From assembly GCF_014610845.1 (NCBI RefSeq), contig NZ_JABTCG010000003.1:372001-436000 (forward strand): DNA of 64,000 nt, in the 5' to 3' direction. Shown here piece by piece: positions 24,932 through 60,332 of this stretch (position 1 is the first letter of the stretch; each line of letters starts with the position of its first letter). Both the position numbers and the translations under genes were made by a program. Source of the stretch: Maribacter arenosus. GTDB taxonomy: Bacteria; Bacteroidota; Bacteroidia; Flavobacteriales; Flavobacteriaceae. The notes beneath the pieces are model-generated. The model was not told the origin of the DNA and made no database searches. It saw only the letters and a program-made list of their open reading frames with translations.

Positions 24932-25126
24932 CTAGTCAATTACTTTCACATTAACGGCGTTTAATCCTTTTTTACCTTGTTGTAGTTCAAATTCCACAAC
25001 ATCACCTTCTCGAACTTCGTCGATTAAGCCAGAAATGTGTACAAAATGATCTTCGTTCGAACCATCTTCAGTGATAAAACCATATCCTTTGGAATCATTG
25101 AAGAATTTAACTGTTCCTTTACTCAT
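24932..25126 (-). CDS. Cold-shock domain protein
   Basis: The protein has 64 residues, a single CSD beta barrel with both RNA-binding motifs: KGYGFITE (RNP1-like) and DHFVHIS (RNP2-like). It binds single-stranded RNA and melts secondary structure. The start sits 30 bases after a perfect TAnnTTTG box, so there is no long E. coli-type cspA thermosensor leader. A strong terminator follows. Confidence 0.95.
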   Translation of the reverse strand: MSKGTVKFFNDSKGYGFITEDGSNEDHFVHISGLIDEVREGDVVEFELQQGKKGLNAVNVKVID

Positions 25127-55387: not shown

Positions 55388-55582
55388 ATTCCCAACTTTT
55401 TAAATCGTATGCAAATTAAGTATAGCTATTGGTATTTTGGCGGAAAACCAGGATTAATTATACGAAAGGCACGTATTTTCAGTTATACCTTTACCCATTT
55501 ATAAATAAAAAAGATTGAAAAGGACGGTATAGTCCAGGAAACCATTGAATAATAATAAGGTAACCGAAATGAGGAATTGATT

Positions 55583-55984
55583 ATGGGAACACATAAAGAA
55601 AAATTGAGTATACTTTCAGAAATGATCGCCTTTGCGAAGGTGGATAATAAGGTGAAGCCTGAAGAATACGGTTTTCTCCAAAGTGTTGCAGAACAATTAG
55701 GGATCGGGCAAGAGGCTTTCGAGGCCCTTTTTCAAGAAGAGGCCGAACATGTTATTCCAAAATCCGAAGCCGATAGAATCTTGCAATTCCACAGGTTGGT
55801 GTTACTTATGAATGTCGATAAAGAGCAGGATCTTTCAGAAATAAACCAAATACACAATATCGGTTTACGAATGGGATTACCGCCATCTGCCATAGAACAA
55901 GTCCTATCCATCATGCATCAATATCCTAACAAGATTGTACCTCCCCAAGTATTATTGGATATTTTTAGGGCATATTACAATTAA
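55583..55984 (+). CDS. TerB-like helical protein
   Basis: The protein has 133 residues, all-helical. KLSILSEMIAFAKVDNKVKPEEYGFLQSVA is the type of helix pair with acidic metal-like positions found in TerB/DjlA-N proteins. It has no signal peptide. The ATG at 55583 is preferred over a TTG two codons upstream. It precedes the hsp20 gene, with a 173-base gap that holds repeats; role unknown. Confidence 0.7.
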   Translation: MGTHKEKLSILSEMIAFAKVDNKVKPEEYGFLQSVAEQLGIGQEAFEALFQEEAEHVIPKSEADRILQFHRLVLLMNVDKEQDLSEINQIHNIGLRMGLPPSAIEQVLSIMHQYPNKIVPPQVLLDIFRAYYN

Positions 55985-56039: not shown

Positions 56040-56089
56040 ATGACATATTGACGCATATCCGCCAAGTATAAGCGTCATAATGACATATT
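56040..56089. promoter_or_regulatory. Repeats upstream of hsp20
   Basis: The direct repeat ATGACATATT occurs at 56040-56049 and 56080-56089, 40 bases apart; between the copies lies the inverted repeat TGACGC (56049-56054)/GCGTCA (56072-56077), and GTCAT-A-ATGAC is a small palindrome at 56074-56084. They lie about 70-120 bases before the hsp20 start and look like an operator. No CIRCE box is present. Confidence 0.45.
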
Positions 56090-56157
56090 TAATCCATTGG
56101 TATATCTTTTGTCTATTCATAAGCGAGTTTAAGTTTTAACCGTTAAAAATAGAAGTT

Positions 56158-56583
56158 ATGAGTTTAATAAAGAGAAATGATGTTTTGTTCCCAACTTTAA
56201 TGAACGAAATATTCAAACCGGATTGGTTCGGAGGTATGGATAATTTTAAAGCGCATGTACCTGCCGTAAACATTAAGGAGAACGAAAAAGATTTCGAACT
56301 ACAATTGGCCGTACCTGGACGAAAGAAAGAAGATTTTCAGATAGAGGTCAATGAAAATGTTTTGACAATTTCTTCAGAAACCAAATCAGAGGAAAACGTT
56401 GAAAATGAAAATTTTACACGTAGGGAATTTTCCTTTGCTTCCTTTAACCGGGCATTTACCCTACCGGAAACGATTGATGAGGACAAAATCAAGGCAACTT
56501 ACGTAGATGGGATTTTAACTTTCAAATTACCGAAAAAGGAAGAGGCATTGCCCAAGCCCAAAAGAATGATCGAATTGTCGTAA
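56158..56583 (+). CDS. Hsp20/alpha-crystallin small heat-shock protein
   Basis: The protein has 141 residues. It holds an alpha-crystallin domain (VPAVNIKENEKDFELQLAVPG, ATYVDGILTFKLPK) flanked by a short N terminus and a short tail. It stops unfolding proteins from clumping, without ATP. Repeats upstream may be its operator. A structured RNA element lies between this gene and the convergent M20 gene. Confidence 0.93.
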   Translation: MSLIKRNDVLFPTLMNEIFKPDWFGGMDNFKAHVPAVNIKENEKDFELQLAVPGRKKEDFQIEVNENVLTISSETKSEENVENENFTRREFSFASFNRAFTLPETIDEDKIKATYVDGILTFKLPKKEEALPKPKRMIELS

Positions 56584-56629
56584 TTGGCTAAAAAATTTAT
56601 GTAGTTCCCGTTCTGGGAAATTTCATAAT

Positions 56630-56741
56630 GGTTGGTTTAGTTGGTTAGTCCTGAGTGTCTGCCGAGCAGATGTCAGGATGCTGTACACCTACCAGTGGTA
56701 GGGTCTTCAGCATTGAAAAGCGTCCCTTGGGACGCTTTTCA
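56630..56741 (+). ncRNA. Candidate structured RNA: three consecutive hairpins after hsp20
   Basis: Three stable stems lie in a row: CCTGA-(G)TG-TCTGC-CGA-GCAGA-TG-TCAGG (56650-56677), ATGCTG-TACA-CCTACC-AGT-GGTAGG-GTCTT-CAGCAT (56678-56713), and the 13-base-pair terminator stem (56714-56741). The first two are much more than a terminator needs. It may be a 3'UTR-derived small RNA of hsp20, an independent RNA, or a protein-binding site. No promoter box was found just in front, and similarity to a known RNA family was not recognised. Confidence 0.55.
56714..56741. terminator. Bidirectional terminator between hsp20 and the M20 gene
   Basis: TGAAAAGCGTCCC pairs perfectly with GGGACGCTTTTCA across a two-base centre. 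It can serve both convergent genes, stops at 56583 and 56745. Confidence 0.8.
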
Positions 56742-56744
56742 CAT

Positions 56745-58331
56745 TTATAGCTTTTCATCTAAAACTGCCAAACATGTAATTATACCTTCCAGATAATTAC
56801 CGATCCGCAAATTTTCATTCGGTCCATGTATATTGTTATCCGGATTTGGGATTCTTATGGATACAGCAGGAATACCTAACGTATTGATGAATGGGGCAAT
56901 CGGTTGTGAGCCCCCGGTGGTTTGCATATTAACAACCTGATCATCAAAGACCTTTTTTAAGGCCCTATTCAAAAATTGCCCAATATCCGATTCCATAGGG
57001 GTTTGGAAGGGCAAAGACCCCAACCTATAGGCAAAGGAAGCTAATTTGGGAAAAGTGCTTCGTTCTTGTTCGGTAGGTATGGCATCGACCAAATGATATC
57101 CTTGGTCCTGAATATATGTTTTTAGAAGTTCCATTAAACGTTTGCCATCCGATTCGGGGACCAGTCGCATATCAATTTCAGCAATGACTTCCGATGGAAT
57201 GATGGTACGCACCTCTTTTTCTACCCAACCTGCTCGTAATCCCCTGATATTCAATGAGGGAAATTGTAGTGCTTCCTGATACGTATTCCCAATAGCATCA
57301 ATGTTCGCGATTCCCAATCGTTGTTTTATACTGTCAATATTTTCCGGTACCGTATTGATCAATGATTTTTTGGAGTCACTTATCTCAATGCCATCATAAA
57401 AACCAGGAATCATGACCTTTCCATTTTTATCTTTTAGGCTTCCCAAAAGTTTTGCGGCGTTAAAAACAGGATTTGGTGCAAAATTTCCATATTGACCACT
57501 ATGAAGGTCTTGTTTTGCCCCAAAAATCCGAAGTTGGGCCGTTGCTATTCCCCTAGCCCCGTATGTAAGGGTTGGAAGGTTCGACACGTGGCGGGTACCG
57601 TCCATAATAAGAAGCATATCGGCTTCCAACAATTCCTTGTTGTTAGCTACCGTTTTCGCAAGAAAAGGAGAGCCCATTTCTTCTTGAAAGTCCATGATGA
57701 CTTTAACGTTAAACCGAGGCTTGGTTTTAAGTTCATTTAGAATTTCAAGAGCCGTAATGAAAGCCATTGCCGGCCCTTTGGAATCGGAAGCGGAACGGGC
57801 AAAAATCCGCCATTCCGGATTATATTCATTTTGTAACCTTTTAAAATCAATCGGTAGCCAACTCCCACCCTTTTTTTCTTTTAGGACTGCATTATATGGG
57901 TTGATCTGGTCCCATTGCGAACTATCCACCGGCTGGCCATCGATCTGGAGGTAAAAGAGTATGGTTTTAGCCTTTTTGTGATACCTTCTTTCCGCGAATA
58001 AAAGGGGTATTCCTTCTGTGTGCAAAACTTCTGTCCGAAAATCCAAGTTCCTGAAAACACTATCGCACCAATGGGCATTATTTTTGGCCTGTTTCGGAAA
58101 ATGGCCATCATTCGCTAGTCCTAGAAACTCTTTTAAACCAAAAACCGCGGCAGGTAATTTTTTACGTGCCAATCCGGATATTTGATCTTTGGTAAGCTGT
58201 TGGGACCATATTGTTGGACTTGTAAGTAAACACATCAGCAGCGGCAGCACTATATAAAAAGAAAAGTGCGTTCTTGGGTTTGTATTGTGTTTTAACCTAC
58301 TTATAAGATTCATAGATTTTTGGGATTCCAT
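56745..58331 (-). CDS. Secreted M20 family peptidase
   Basis: The protein has 528 residues. An N-terminal signal or anchor segment (FSFYIVLPLLMCLLTSPTIWS, about 24-44) is followed by the M20 fold: SASDSKGPAMAF holds the bridging Asp, MDFQEEMGSP the catalytic Glu pair, and IHGPNENLR the late His. It includes the dimerisation insert (RIFGAKQDLHSGQYGNF). It is probably a dipeptidase exported to the periplasm. It begins 12 bases after uvrB, so it is likely its operon partner. Either of two ATGs may be the start (58331 or 58313). Confidence 0.88.
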   Translation of the reverse strand: MESQKSMNLISRLKHNTNPRTHFSFYIVLPLLMCLLTSPTIWSQQLTKDQISGLARKKLPAAVFGLKEFLGLANDGHFPKQAKNNAHWCDSVFRNLDFRTEVLHTEGIPLLFAERRYHKKAKTILFYLQIDGQPVDSSQWDQINPYNAVLKEKKGGSWLPIDFKRLQNEYNPEWRIFARSASDSKGPAMAFITALEILNELKTKPRFNVKVIMDFQEEMGSPFLAKTVANNKELLEADMLLIMDGTRHVSNLPTLTYGARGIATAQLRIFGAKQDLHSGQYGNFAPNPVFNAAKLLGSLKDKNGKVMIPGFYDGIEISDSKKSLINTVPENIDSIKQRLGIANIDAIGNTYQEALQFPSLNIRGLRAGWVEKEVRTIIPSEVIAEIDMRLVPESDGKRLMELLKTYIQDQGYHLVDAIPTEQERSTFPKLASFAYRLGSLPFQTPMESDIGQFLNRALKKVFDDQVVNMQTTGGSQPIAPFINTLGIPAVSIRIPNPDNNIHGPNENLRIGNYLEGIITCLAVLDEKL

Positions 58332-58343
58332 TGATAGGGGGAA

Positions 58344-60332
58344 TTAGTCTTGCTTTTGTAACATTTTAATCTCATCACGCAATTTGGCGGCATGCATAAA
58401 GTCCAACTCCTTGGCGGCCTTTTCCATGGCCTTTCTCTTGTCACGAATCAATTTTTCAATTTGTTCTTTGGTCAAGTAATCCAGATCCGGTTCGGCAGCC
58501 CTTAATTCTTCTTTTTCAAAATGGTAGGTAGAGACGGAATTCTTCGCCAAAGCGCTATCCAGACTTTTGTTCAAGGCCTTTGGGGTAATGTTGTTGGCCG
58601 TATTATAAGCAATTTGTTTTTCCCGGCGGTAATTGGTTTCATCTATGGTCCTCTGCATACTGGCAGTTATCTTATCGGCATACATAATGGCCTTGCCTTG
58701 TAAATGCCTTGCCGCTCTCCCAACGGTCTGGGTCAACGATCGGTTGCTACGTAGAAAACCTTCCTTATCGGCATCCAAAATGGCCACTAATGAAACTTCG
58801 GGTAAGTCGAGGCCCTCTCGCAGCAAATTAACCCCAATGAGCACATCGAAAATGCCCTTACGAAGGTCTTGCATGATCTCAACACGTTCCAAGGTATCCA
58901 CATCGCTATGAATATACCTGCAGCGAACACTGATTCGCGATAAATATTTGGTCAATTCCTCTGCCATTCGTTTGGTGAGGGTCGTGACCAGGGTTCTTTC
59001 GTCCCTTTCAACCCTTAGTTGAATTTCCTCGATCAAGTCGTCGATTTGGTTTAAACTAGGTTTTACTTCTATAACAGGGTCTAACAATCCAGTGGGTCTT
59101 ATTACCTGTTCCACATAAACACCTTGACAAAGCTGTAGTTCGTAATCGGCAGGGGTAGCGCTGACGTAGATCACCTGATTTTGAAGTGCTTCGAACTCCT
59201 CAAATTTTAAGGGTCTATTGTCCATGGCTGCTGGCAAACGAAAACCGTAATCTACCAAATTTTCTTTTCGTGACCTATCTCCACCGTACATGGCATGTAC
59301 TTGCGGAATGGTGACATGGCTTTCATCGATGACCATGAGATAGTCTTGTGGAAAATAATCCAAGAGACAAAAGGGTCGGGTTCCGGGTTCACGGCCATCC
59401 AAATAACGTGAGTAGTTTTCAATGCCGGAGCAATACCCCAATTCCCGAATCATTTCCAGATCAAAATTGGTACGTTCTTCCAACCTTTTTGCTTCCAGTG
59501 GTTTTCCTATTTCCTTGAAGTATTCGATTTGATGTACCAAATCATCTTGAATCTGATGAATAGCGTTTTGAAGAATATCGGGCGAGGTAACGAACATATT
59601 TGCCGGATAGATATTCAAATTTTCATAGGCTTCTATAACGTTGTTGTTGAATGGATCAAAAGCCTCTATCTCTTCAATCTCATCGCCAAAGAAATGGATC
59701 CTGAAGGCGTGGTCTGCATAACTGGGAAAAATATCGACAACGTCGCCTTTGACCCTGAAATTCCCATTTCTAAAATCGGCCGAGGTCCTTGAATAAAGGC
59801 TTTGTACCAACAGGTGCAACAACTTGGTACGTGCGATAACTTGATCTTTTTGAATACTGATTACATTCTTTTGGAATTCAACCGGATTCCCAATCCCATA
59901 TAAACAAGATACCGATGCCACAACAAGAACATCCCTTCTGCCTGAAAGCAGGGAAGATGTGGCACTCAATCTAAGTTTCTCAATGTCCTCGTTAATAGAC
60001 AAATCCTTTTCAATATAAAGTCCTGAGGTGGGAATATAAGCCTCAGGTTGGTAGTAGTCATAATAGGAAACAAAATATTCTATAGCATTTTCAGGAAAAA
60101 ACTGCTTGAATTCGGAATATAATTGGGCGGCCAATGTCTTGTTATGGGCAAGGACCAATGTGGGGCGTTGCACTTCCTCAATTACATTGGCAACGGTAAA
60201 CGTTTTACCAGAACCCGTTACCCCCAAAAGCGTTTGATAGGGTTCCTGGGTATTGATCCCCTTGACCAACTGCCTTATTGCTTCTGGTTGATCGCCTGTT
60301 GGCTTAAATTCGGATACGACCTTAAATTTCAT
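58344..60332 (-). CDS. uvrB: Excinuclease ABC subunit B
   Basis: The protein has 662 residues, DNA damage recognition in nucleotide excision repair. It has Walker A GVTGSGKTFT, the beta-hairpin Tyr motif YYDYYQPEAYIP, DESHVTIPQ (Walker B), motifs IV-VI (DVLIGVNLLREGLDLPEVS, QTVGRAARH), and the UVR domain at the end (about 625-662) that contacts UvrC. Length is standard. The ATG at 60332 is followed directly by the conserved N terminus. Confidence 0.97.
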   Translation of the reverse strand: MKFKVVSEFKPTGDQPEAIRQLVKGINTQEPYQTLLGVTGSGKTFTVANVIEEVQRPTLVLAHNKTLAAQLYSEFKQFFPENAIEYFVSYYDYYQPEAYIPTSGLYIEKDLSINEDIEKLRLSATSSLLSGRRDVLVVASVSCLYGIGNPVEFQKNVISIQKDQVIARTKLLHLLVQSLYSRTSADFRNGNFRVKGDVVDIFPSYADHAFRIHFFGDEIEEIEAFDPFNNNVIEAYENLNIYPANMFVTSPDILQNAIHQIQDDLVHQIEYFKEIGKPLEAKRLEERTNFDLEMIRELGYCSGIENYSRYLDGREPGTRPFCLLDYFPQDYLMVIDESHVTIPQVHAMYGGDRSRKENLVDYGFRLPAAMDNRPLKFEEFEALQNQVIYVSATPADYELQLCQGVYVEQVIRPTGLLDPVIEVKPSLNQIDDLIEEIQLRVERDERTLVTTLTKRMAEELTKYLSRISVRCRYIHSDVDTLERVEIMQDLRKGIFDVLIGVNLLREGLDLPEVSLVAILDADKEGFLRSNRSLTQTVGRAARHLQGKAIMYADKITASMQRTIDETNYRREKQIAYNTANNITPKALNKSLDSALAKNSVSTYHFEKEELRAAEPDLDYLTKEQIEKLIRDKRKAMEKAAKELDFMHAAKLRDEIKMLQKQD

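Follow-up and report, generated by a model that had tools for sequence, protein, structure and literature searches.

The locus between a small heat-shock gene (hsp20) of Maribacter arenosus and a convergent M20 peptidase gene raises the question of whether the tail of the hsp20 mRNA is a regulatory RNA, and which part of this tail would carry such a function. In the window, i.e. the whole analyzed stretch of 64,000 nucleotides, hsp20 is followed by 161 bases, the peptidase gene and then uvrB (Table 1). An earlier note on this DNA had placed a three-hairpin RNA at 56630..56741 and suggested a stress-related 3′-UTR RNA. The Flavobacteriaceae are a major marine family with mRNAs lacking Shine-Dalgarno sites, and to our knowledge few regulatory RNAs have been described for them. 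An RNA that is tied to a stress gene in 28 genera and contains a near-constant short tract represents a precise, mutable handle on the use of RNA in stress.

Table 1. Features of the hsp20 locus and its neighborhood (window positions).
Feature	Position	Strand or location	Evidence
Palindrome GTCATAATGAC, possible activator site	56074..56084	upstream of hsp20 promoter-like site	read from sequence
TTGGTATATCTTTTGTC, sigma-54-like hsp20 promoter candidate (GG-N10-G)	56097..56113	+	leader pattern, rpoN in genome
hsp20, small heat-shock protein gene, the RNA lying in the tail of its mRNA	56158..56583	+	PF00011, 85.9 bits
Hairpin H1, outer stem UUAUG/CAUAA, inner stem UUCCC/GGGAA	56597..56628	+	fold; inner-stem covariation, 41 loci
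Conserved G/U-rich tract GGUUGGUUUAGUUGGUUAGU, presumed pairing or binding region	56630..56649	+	alignments, unpaired probability
Hairpin H2 (first stem of the earlier note), insertion in four Maribacter loci	56648..56679	+	folds, comparison
Hairpin H3 (second stem of the earlier note), insertion in the same four loci as H2	56680..56711	+	folds, comparison
Intrinsic terminator hairpin, probably common to the convergent gene	56714..56741	+	z −6.7; A/T runs on both sides
Convergent M20 peptidase gene, context	56745..58331	−	PF01546, PF07687
uvrB, context; in many relatives directly convergent to the RNA	58344..60332	−	PF12344, PF17757

The RNA lies on the strand of hsp20 itself, and the distance between the hsp20 stop codon and H1 is only 13 bases. 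It is located within the 3′-UTR of hsp20 and shares the terminator of the gene, which is the location of 3′-UTR-derived small RNAs. The region 56630-56741 (+ strand) folds with −49.8 kcal/mol (z −4.8), a value reached by none of 200 shuffled sequences. The same holds for H2 and H3 without the terminator (56648-56712; −31.9 kcal/mol, z −4.2, 0 of 200) and for the terminator hairpin by itself (−18.6 kcal/mol, 0 of 200). The stems and the terminator described earlier are therefore real, but three hairpins are not the shape of the family (see below), and the minimum-energy fold pairs 74 of the 112 bases instead of the roughly 90 that had been claimed. H1 by itself is energetically unremarkable (z −1.4; 16 of 200 shuffles were as good), so that its support is comparative.

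The only ATG of the tract in the window opens a frame of six codons, which is broken in many relatives by a 4-base insertion found in the alignment. A coding peptide in the tract was rejected on these grounds, in agreement with the non-coding character assigned before. Likewise, the family, which had not been recognized from the letters, has no counterpart in Rfam 15, since no match at the gathering thresholds was obtained for the whole window. Below threshold, nine matches to unrelated families were obtained for 56560-56760, the best of them (E 0.035) on the opposite strand. A repeated element was rejected as well: a complete second copy of H2/H3 is absent from the genome (4.17 Mb), the next-best matches being 14-28 bases long.

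For the comparison with relatives, a blastn search of 60 genomes was used. The best-conserved bases were found at 56620-56649, at the start of the interval noted before, and not in the H2 and H3 stems. These 30 bases are perfectly matched in three members of the genus. H1 together with the tract (56630-56649) was taken as the defining part of the RNA family; the interval 56630..56741 does contain tract and terminator, but it begins too late and misses H1. A pattern scan of the genome contigs resulted in 22 loci. In 16 of these, the hairpin, the G/U tract and the terminator are located behind hsp20 (at L043, the contig only starts within the final codons of hsp20). The remaining six (L039, L042, L048, L052, L054, L056) lie elsewhere and scored 17-22 bits with model R1, except for L052, which is located inside a gene and yet reached 40 bits.

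Model R1 (18 alignment rows) matched 164 of 397 genomes of the family Flavobacteriaceae at E ≤ 0.1, mostly weakly, and all of the best 30 of these 164 matches were located directly behind hsp20. With model R2, rebuilt from 41 rows, 62 of the 397 genomes were matched at E ≤ 0.001. Among the best 50 of these 62, 44 were linked to hsp20 and six were not (L149, L152, L153, L155, L156, L157; 32-37 bits), while all 37 matches of at least 39 bits were hsp20-linked. One lower R2 match (G029) could be linked to hsp20 by its coordinates. H1 and the tract were thus found directly behind hsp20 in 45 of 397 genomes with 28 genus labels (best 50 of 62 plus G029), and the sequence is not unique to this genome, the case that the earlier note had named as speaking against it. 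The large-scale searches used stricter filters, so that absences are not firm. At the order level, five of 148 genomes were matched, three of them from this family and two others at 29-31 bits. A shorter tract, CATAATGGTTGTTGGTTAGTT, characterizes the member located behind hsp20 at L236 (G005), which was missed by the blastn search of the 60 genomes. In the genome of the window the model gave a single match. Two further hsp20 genes exist there (C19:148970 and C12:199467; 48-51% identical), and the model matches the window copy only.

The linkage was also determined from the protein side, using the 3′ flanks of the best 30 hsp20 matches in 120 genomes, one flank being cut off. The GGUU/AGUU tract was present in 25 of the 29 readable flanks, 17 identified by script and eight by reading; the latter had not been oriented by the script (L190, L193, L198, L201, L203, L207, L209, L210). 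Four flanks (L197, L204, L205, L206) carried no tract. As a control, the tract occurred in 11 of 399 3′ flanks of long ORFs in a sample of the own genome, hsp20 included. A generic companion of terminators was rejected, as GGTTAGTT preceded none and GTTAGTT two of 92 terminator-like sites in 464 kb.

Most family members that were read consist of hairpin, G/U tract and terminator. In several distant members H1 is absent by eye, which leaves tract and terminator as the core. In the literature searched (supplements and subscription papers lying outside its scope), no hsp20-linked RNA of the Flavobacteriaceae was found. It is almost certain that a real RNA family exists here, previously uncatalogued and of an already known kind.

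Regarding compensatory changes, the structure was written by hand from single folds and alignment A3 (41 rows) was fitted to it, whereas RNAalifold predicted no pairs for the plain MAFFT alignment A1. Pair counts from A3 therefore lean towards the model, and slid partners and shuffling served as the check. In the inner stem of H1, changes on both sides were observed at all six of six pairs; in the outer stem, variation is one-sided at most (A3). The covariation score of H1 was 0.372, compared to 0.164 ± 0.014 for 500 shuffles and at most 0.123 for slid partners. The compensatory changes asked for earlier are hence present in H1, but they are weak in the two stems that had been emphasized. H2 and H3 are carried by four of 18 aligned loci (the window, L047, L046 and L051), with pairing in 94% of the cells and two pairs changed on both sides, which was matched by 66 of 500 shuffles. 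They are the least conserved portion and the latest addition to a larger RNA. Differing short palindromes (CCTGCCGCTTAGGCAGG and similar) were found in or beside the tract in L146 (G113) and L158 (G070), suggesting that this spot tolerates hairpin insertions.

The mean unpaired probability of the tract was 0.66 (38 loci out of 41 attempted, with one genome represented twice), compared to 0.39 for the whole RNA, and 0.47 when downstream sequence was included. The tract of the window is only 0.51 unpaired because its A/U-rich flanks can pair with it. Tract length and middle differ between genera, with short repeats of GGUU and AGUU in variable spacing. This variability would be as compatible with loose pairing or with a bound protein as with a precise seed. 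The tract might also fold into a two-layer G-quadruplex acting as a structural switch: in 24 of 38 loci, at least four GG runs were found in the 30 bases around its start, some of them perhaps belonging to the terminator stem. The remaining 14 loci lack four such runs and conservation extends to the letters that separate the GG runs, making such a switch highly improbable.

The stress link was examined in the leaders of hsp20, 50 of which were gathered from 54 loci, at least two of them being repeats of one genome. The pattern GG-N10-G[ACT]C was found 37-53 bases upstream of the assigned start in 33 of the 50 leaders (raw count), and four more matches were located elsewhere. The last base pair of the pattern is often GT or GA in place of the GC of the sigma-54 core. 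The gene rpoN is present in the genome (PF04552, 175 bits). In Flavobacterium psychrophilum, a sigma-54 motif drives groESL, dnaK, grpE-dnaJ, htpG, clpB and lon; hsp20 is not among the genes in the selection printed there (PMC9723704). By its letters, the putative hsp20 promoter resembles these chaperone sites. The sigma-54-like leader, the presence of rpoN and the precedent in F. psychrophilum probably place hsp20, together with its tail, in one stress regulon with the sigma-54 chaperone genes. The stress-related character proposed earlier is thus supported by the hsp20 linkage and the sigma-54-like promoter, from which induction of the RNA by stress would follow, and the RNA is probably a stress-linked regulatory RNA.

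Strings of the form GNCANAAWGNC, similar to the palindrome in Table 1, were seen by eye in many of the 50 leaders. A TerB-domain gene (PF05099; window 55577-55984) lies upstream of hsp20, and several relatives have comparable ORFs in this position.

In Gammaproteobacteria, small RNAs derived from 3′-UTRs are known, e.g. CpxQ from the cpxP mRNA, and depend on Hfq and RNase E. The likeness is that a stress gene would have an mRNA tail with a second role as a regulatory RNA, using the gene's own terminator. For the hsp20-tail RNA, processing is hypothetical. F. psychrophilum, a relative at the family level, has the Rfp RNAs, which are described in the available text as independent small RNAs, some conserved in the genus. 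By description, Rfp18 is structured, independent and acts on metalloprotease mRNAs, and in this it differs from the hsp20-tail RNA.

The closest layout is that of GibS and FopS of Bacteroides thetaiotaomicron, a member of the same phylum. According to the accessible text of the two reports, these RNAs have a conserved, single-stranded seed ahead of an intrinsic terminator and act at translation starts without Shine-Dalgarno sites, and one FopS member is derived from a 3′-end (PMC11697453, PMC7366714). The hsp20-tail RNA shows the same order of a conserved, single-stranded, seed-like tract and an intrinsic terminator, a comparison by layout and not by the letters of the seed. It differs in the additional hairpin 5′ of the tract and in being single-copy; GibS and FopS are described there as mostly intergenic or antisense, with 14 copies of FopS.

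Pairing is rated here as the likeliest mechanism. The hsp20 mRNA, presumably transcribed from its stress-type promoter, would end in a non-coding RNA of H1, G/U tract and intrinsic terminator, to which some Maribacter add two hairpins. This RNA may remain attached to the mRNA as its tail, or a small RNA may be cleaved off. During stress, the tract, being exposed, would pair with other mRNAs at their A/C-rich translation starts and block their translation, as do GibS and FopS in Bacteroides. We regard this as the best explanation, with a chance slightly below even.

The complement of the tract resembles a leader that is rich in A and C and carries a start codon. In the own genome, 21 near-matches to the complement were found compared to 45 for the backward control, i.e. 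they are rarer. Four of the 20 non-self near-matches end 2-15 bases before an ATG, one of them that of accA. In the accA leaders complementarity is kept in 12 of 12 genomes of the genus (−14.1 to −21.9 kcal/mol), and in the purA leaders in the 11 read of 12 (−14.1 to −17.8 kcal/mol), where the site seemingly overlaps the stop codon of the preceding gene and its conservation may have another cause. Complementarity in dnaA leaders was found in three genomes. The control pattern likewise recurs among relatives (among the matches listed), so that recurrence of a site in close relatives is by itself no evidence of targeting. The genes accA, purA and dnaA are weak candidate targets.

A generic anti-start RNA acting genome-wide was rejected, since 396 own starts (464 kb) bind the tract no better than 60 shuffled tracts. 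Pairing averaged −10.9 kcal/mol, and 32 of the 396 starts fell below −15 kcal/mol compared to 27 ± 6 expected, 14 of the 60 shuffled tracts reaching 32. This absence of target enrichment would also be expected if an RNA-binding protein, e.g. an RRM protein like RbpB of Bacteroides, landed on the tract or were titrated by it, without any base-pairing. The short GGUU and AGUU repeats in variable spacing and the similar tracts at other transcript ends point in the same direction, and such a protein site is a rather improbable reading.

The RNA could also be a cis element only, protecting the 3′-end of the hsp20 mRNA or tuning termination between the converging genes. The constant position in the linked loci, adjoining the terminator, and the free variation of H1 and the inserted hairpins would be expected of a stability element, but such an element needs no near-fixed single-stranded sequence. 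Cis pairing with the hsp20 leader is not supported either: it amounted to −9.5 kcal/mol for 43 leaders, compared to −9.8 ± 0.7 for shuffled tracts and −11.1 for the 396 background starts. A function confined to hsp20 is therefore rather unlikely, and pairing with the translation starts of other mRNAs is retained as the preferred reading.

Two further conserved transcript ends with tracts of a similar kind came up on the opposite strand in the search for recurrent sites among relatives. A second RNA candidate is intergenic; it converges with murB and diverges from an ECF sigma gene (L217, reverse strand, around 1440-1570; the copy of the own genome is on C22 near 25091-25110, L242). It consists of a hairpin ATGTACAA..TTGTACAT, followed by CATTTAGTTTTTGGTTAGTTTGGTTTGG and a terminator. 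Similar strings were found in at least 11 of 12 genomes of the genus (among the matches listed), nine of 11 loci being fully read, and a short hairpin with CAT at its end precedes the tract, as does H1. In eight of 12 genomes of the genus, a leucine-rich-repeat gene (L228, L252-L258) has a third tract, CATAGTTTTAGTTAGTTTGGTTAAAAGGGATGC, ahead of its terminator; the protein is named only by this repeat because its NCBIfam matches are far below the cut-offs. The murB-side and leucine-rich-repeat tracts suggest a class of tract RNAs. It is conceivable, although unlikely, that RNAs with GGUUAGUU-type tracts at the hsp20, murB and leucine-rich-repeat ends form a stress regulon, which, upon activation of protein-repair genes by sigma-54, would either silence translation at A/C-rich starts or titrate a single RNA-binding protein. 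In the own genome, GATTAGTTGTTTGAGTTAGTTGAGTTAGCAA was found directly before a strong terminator (L169, near 19462), possibly representing a further tract RNA.
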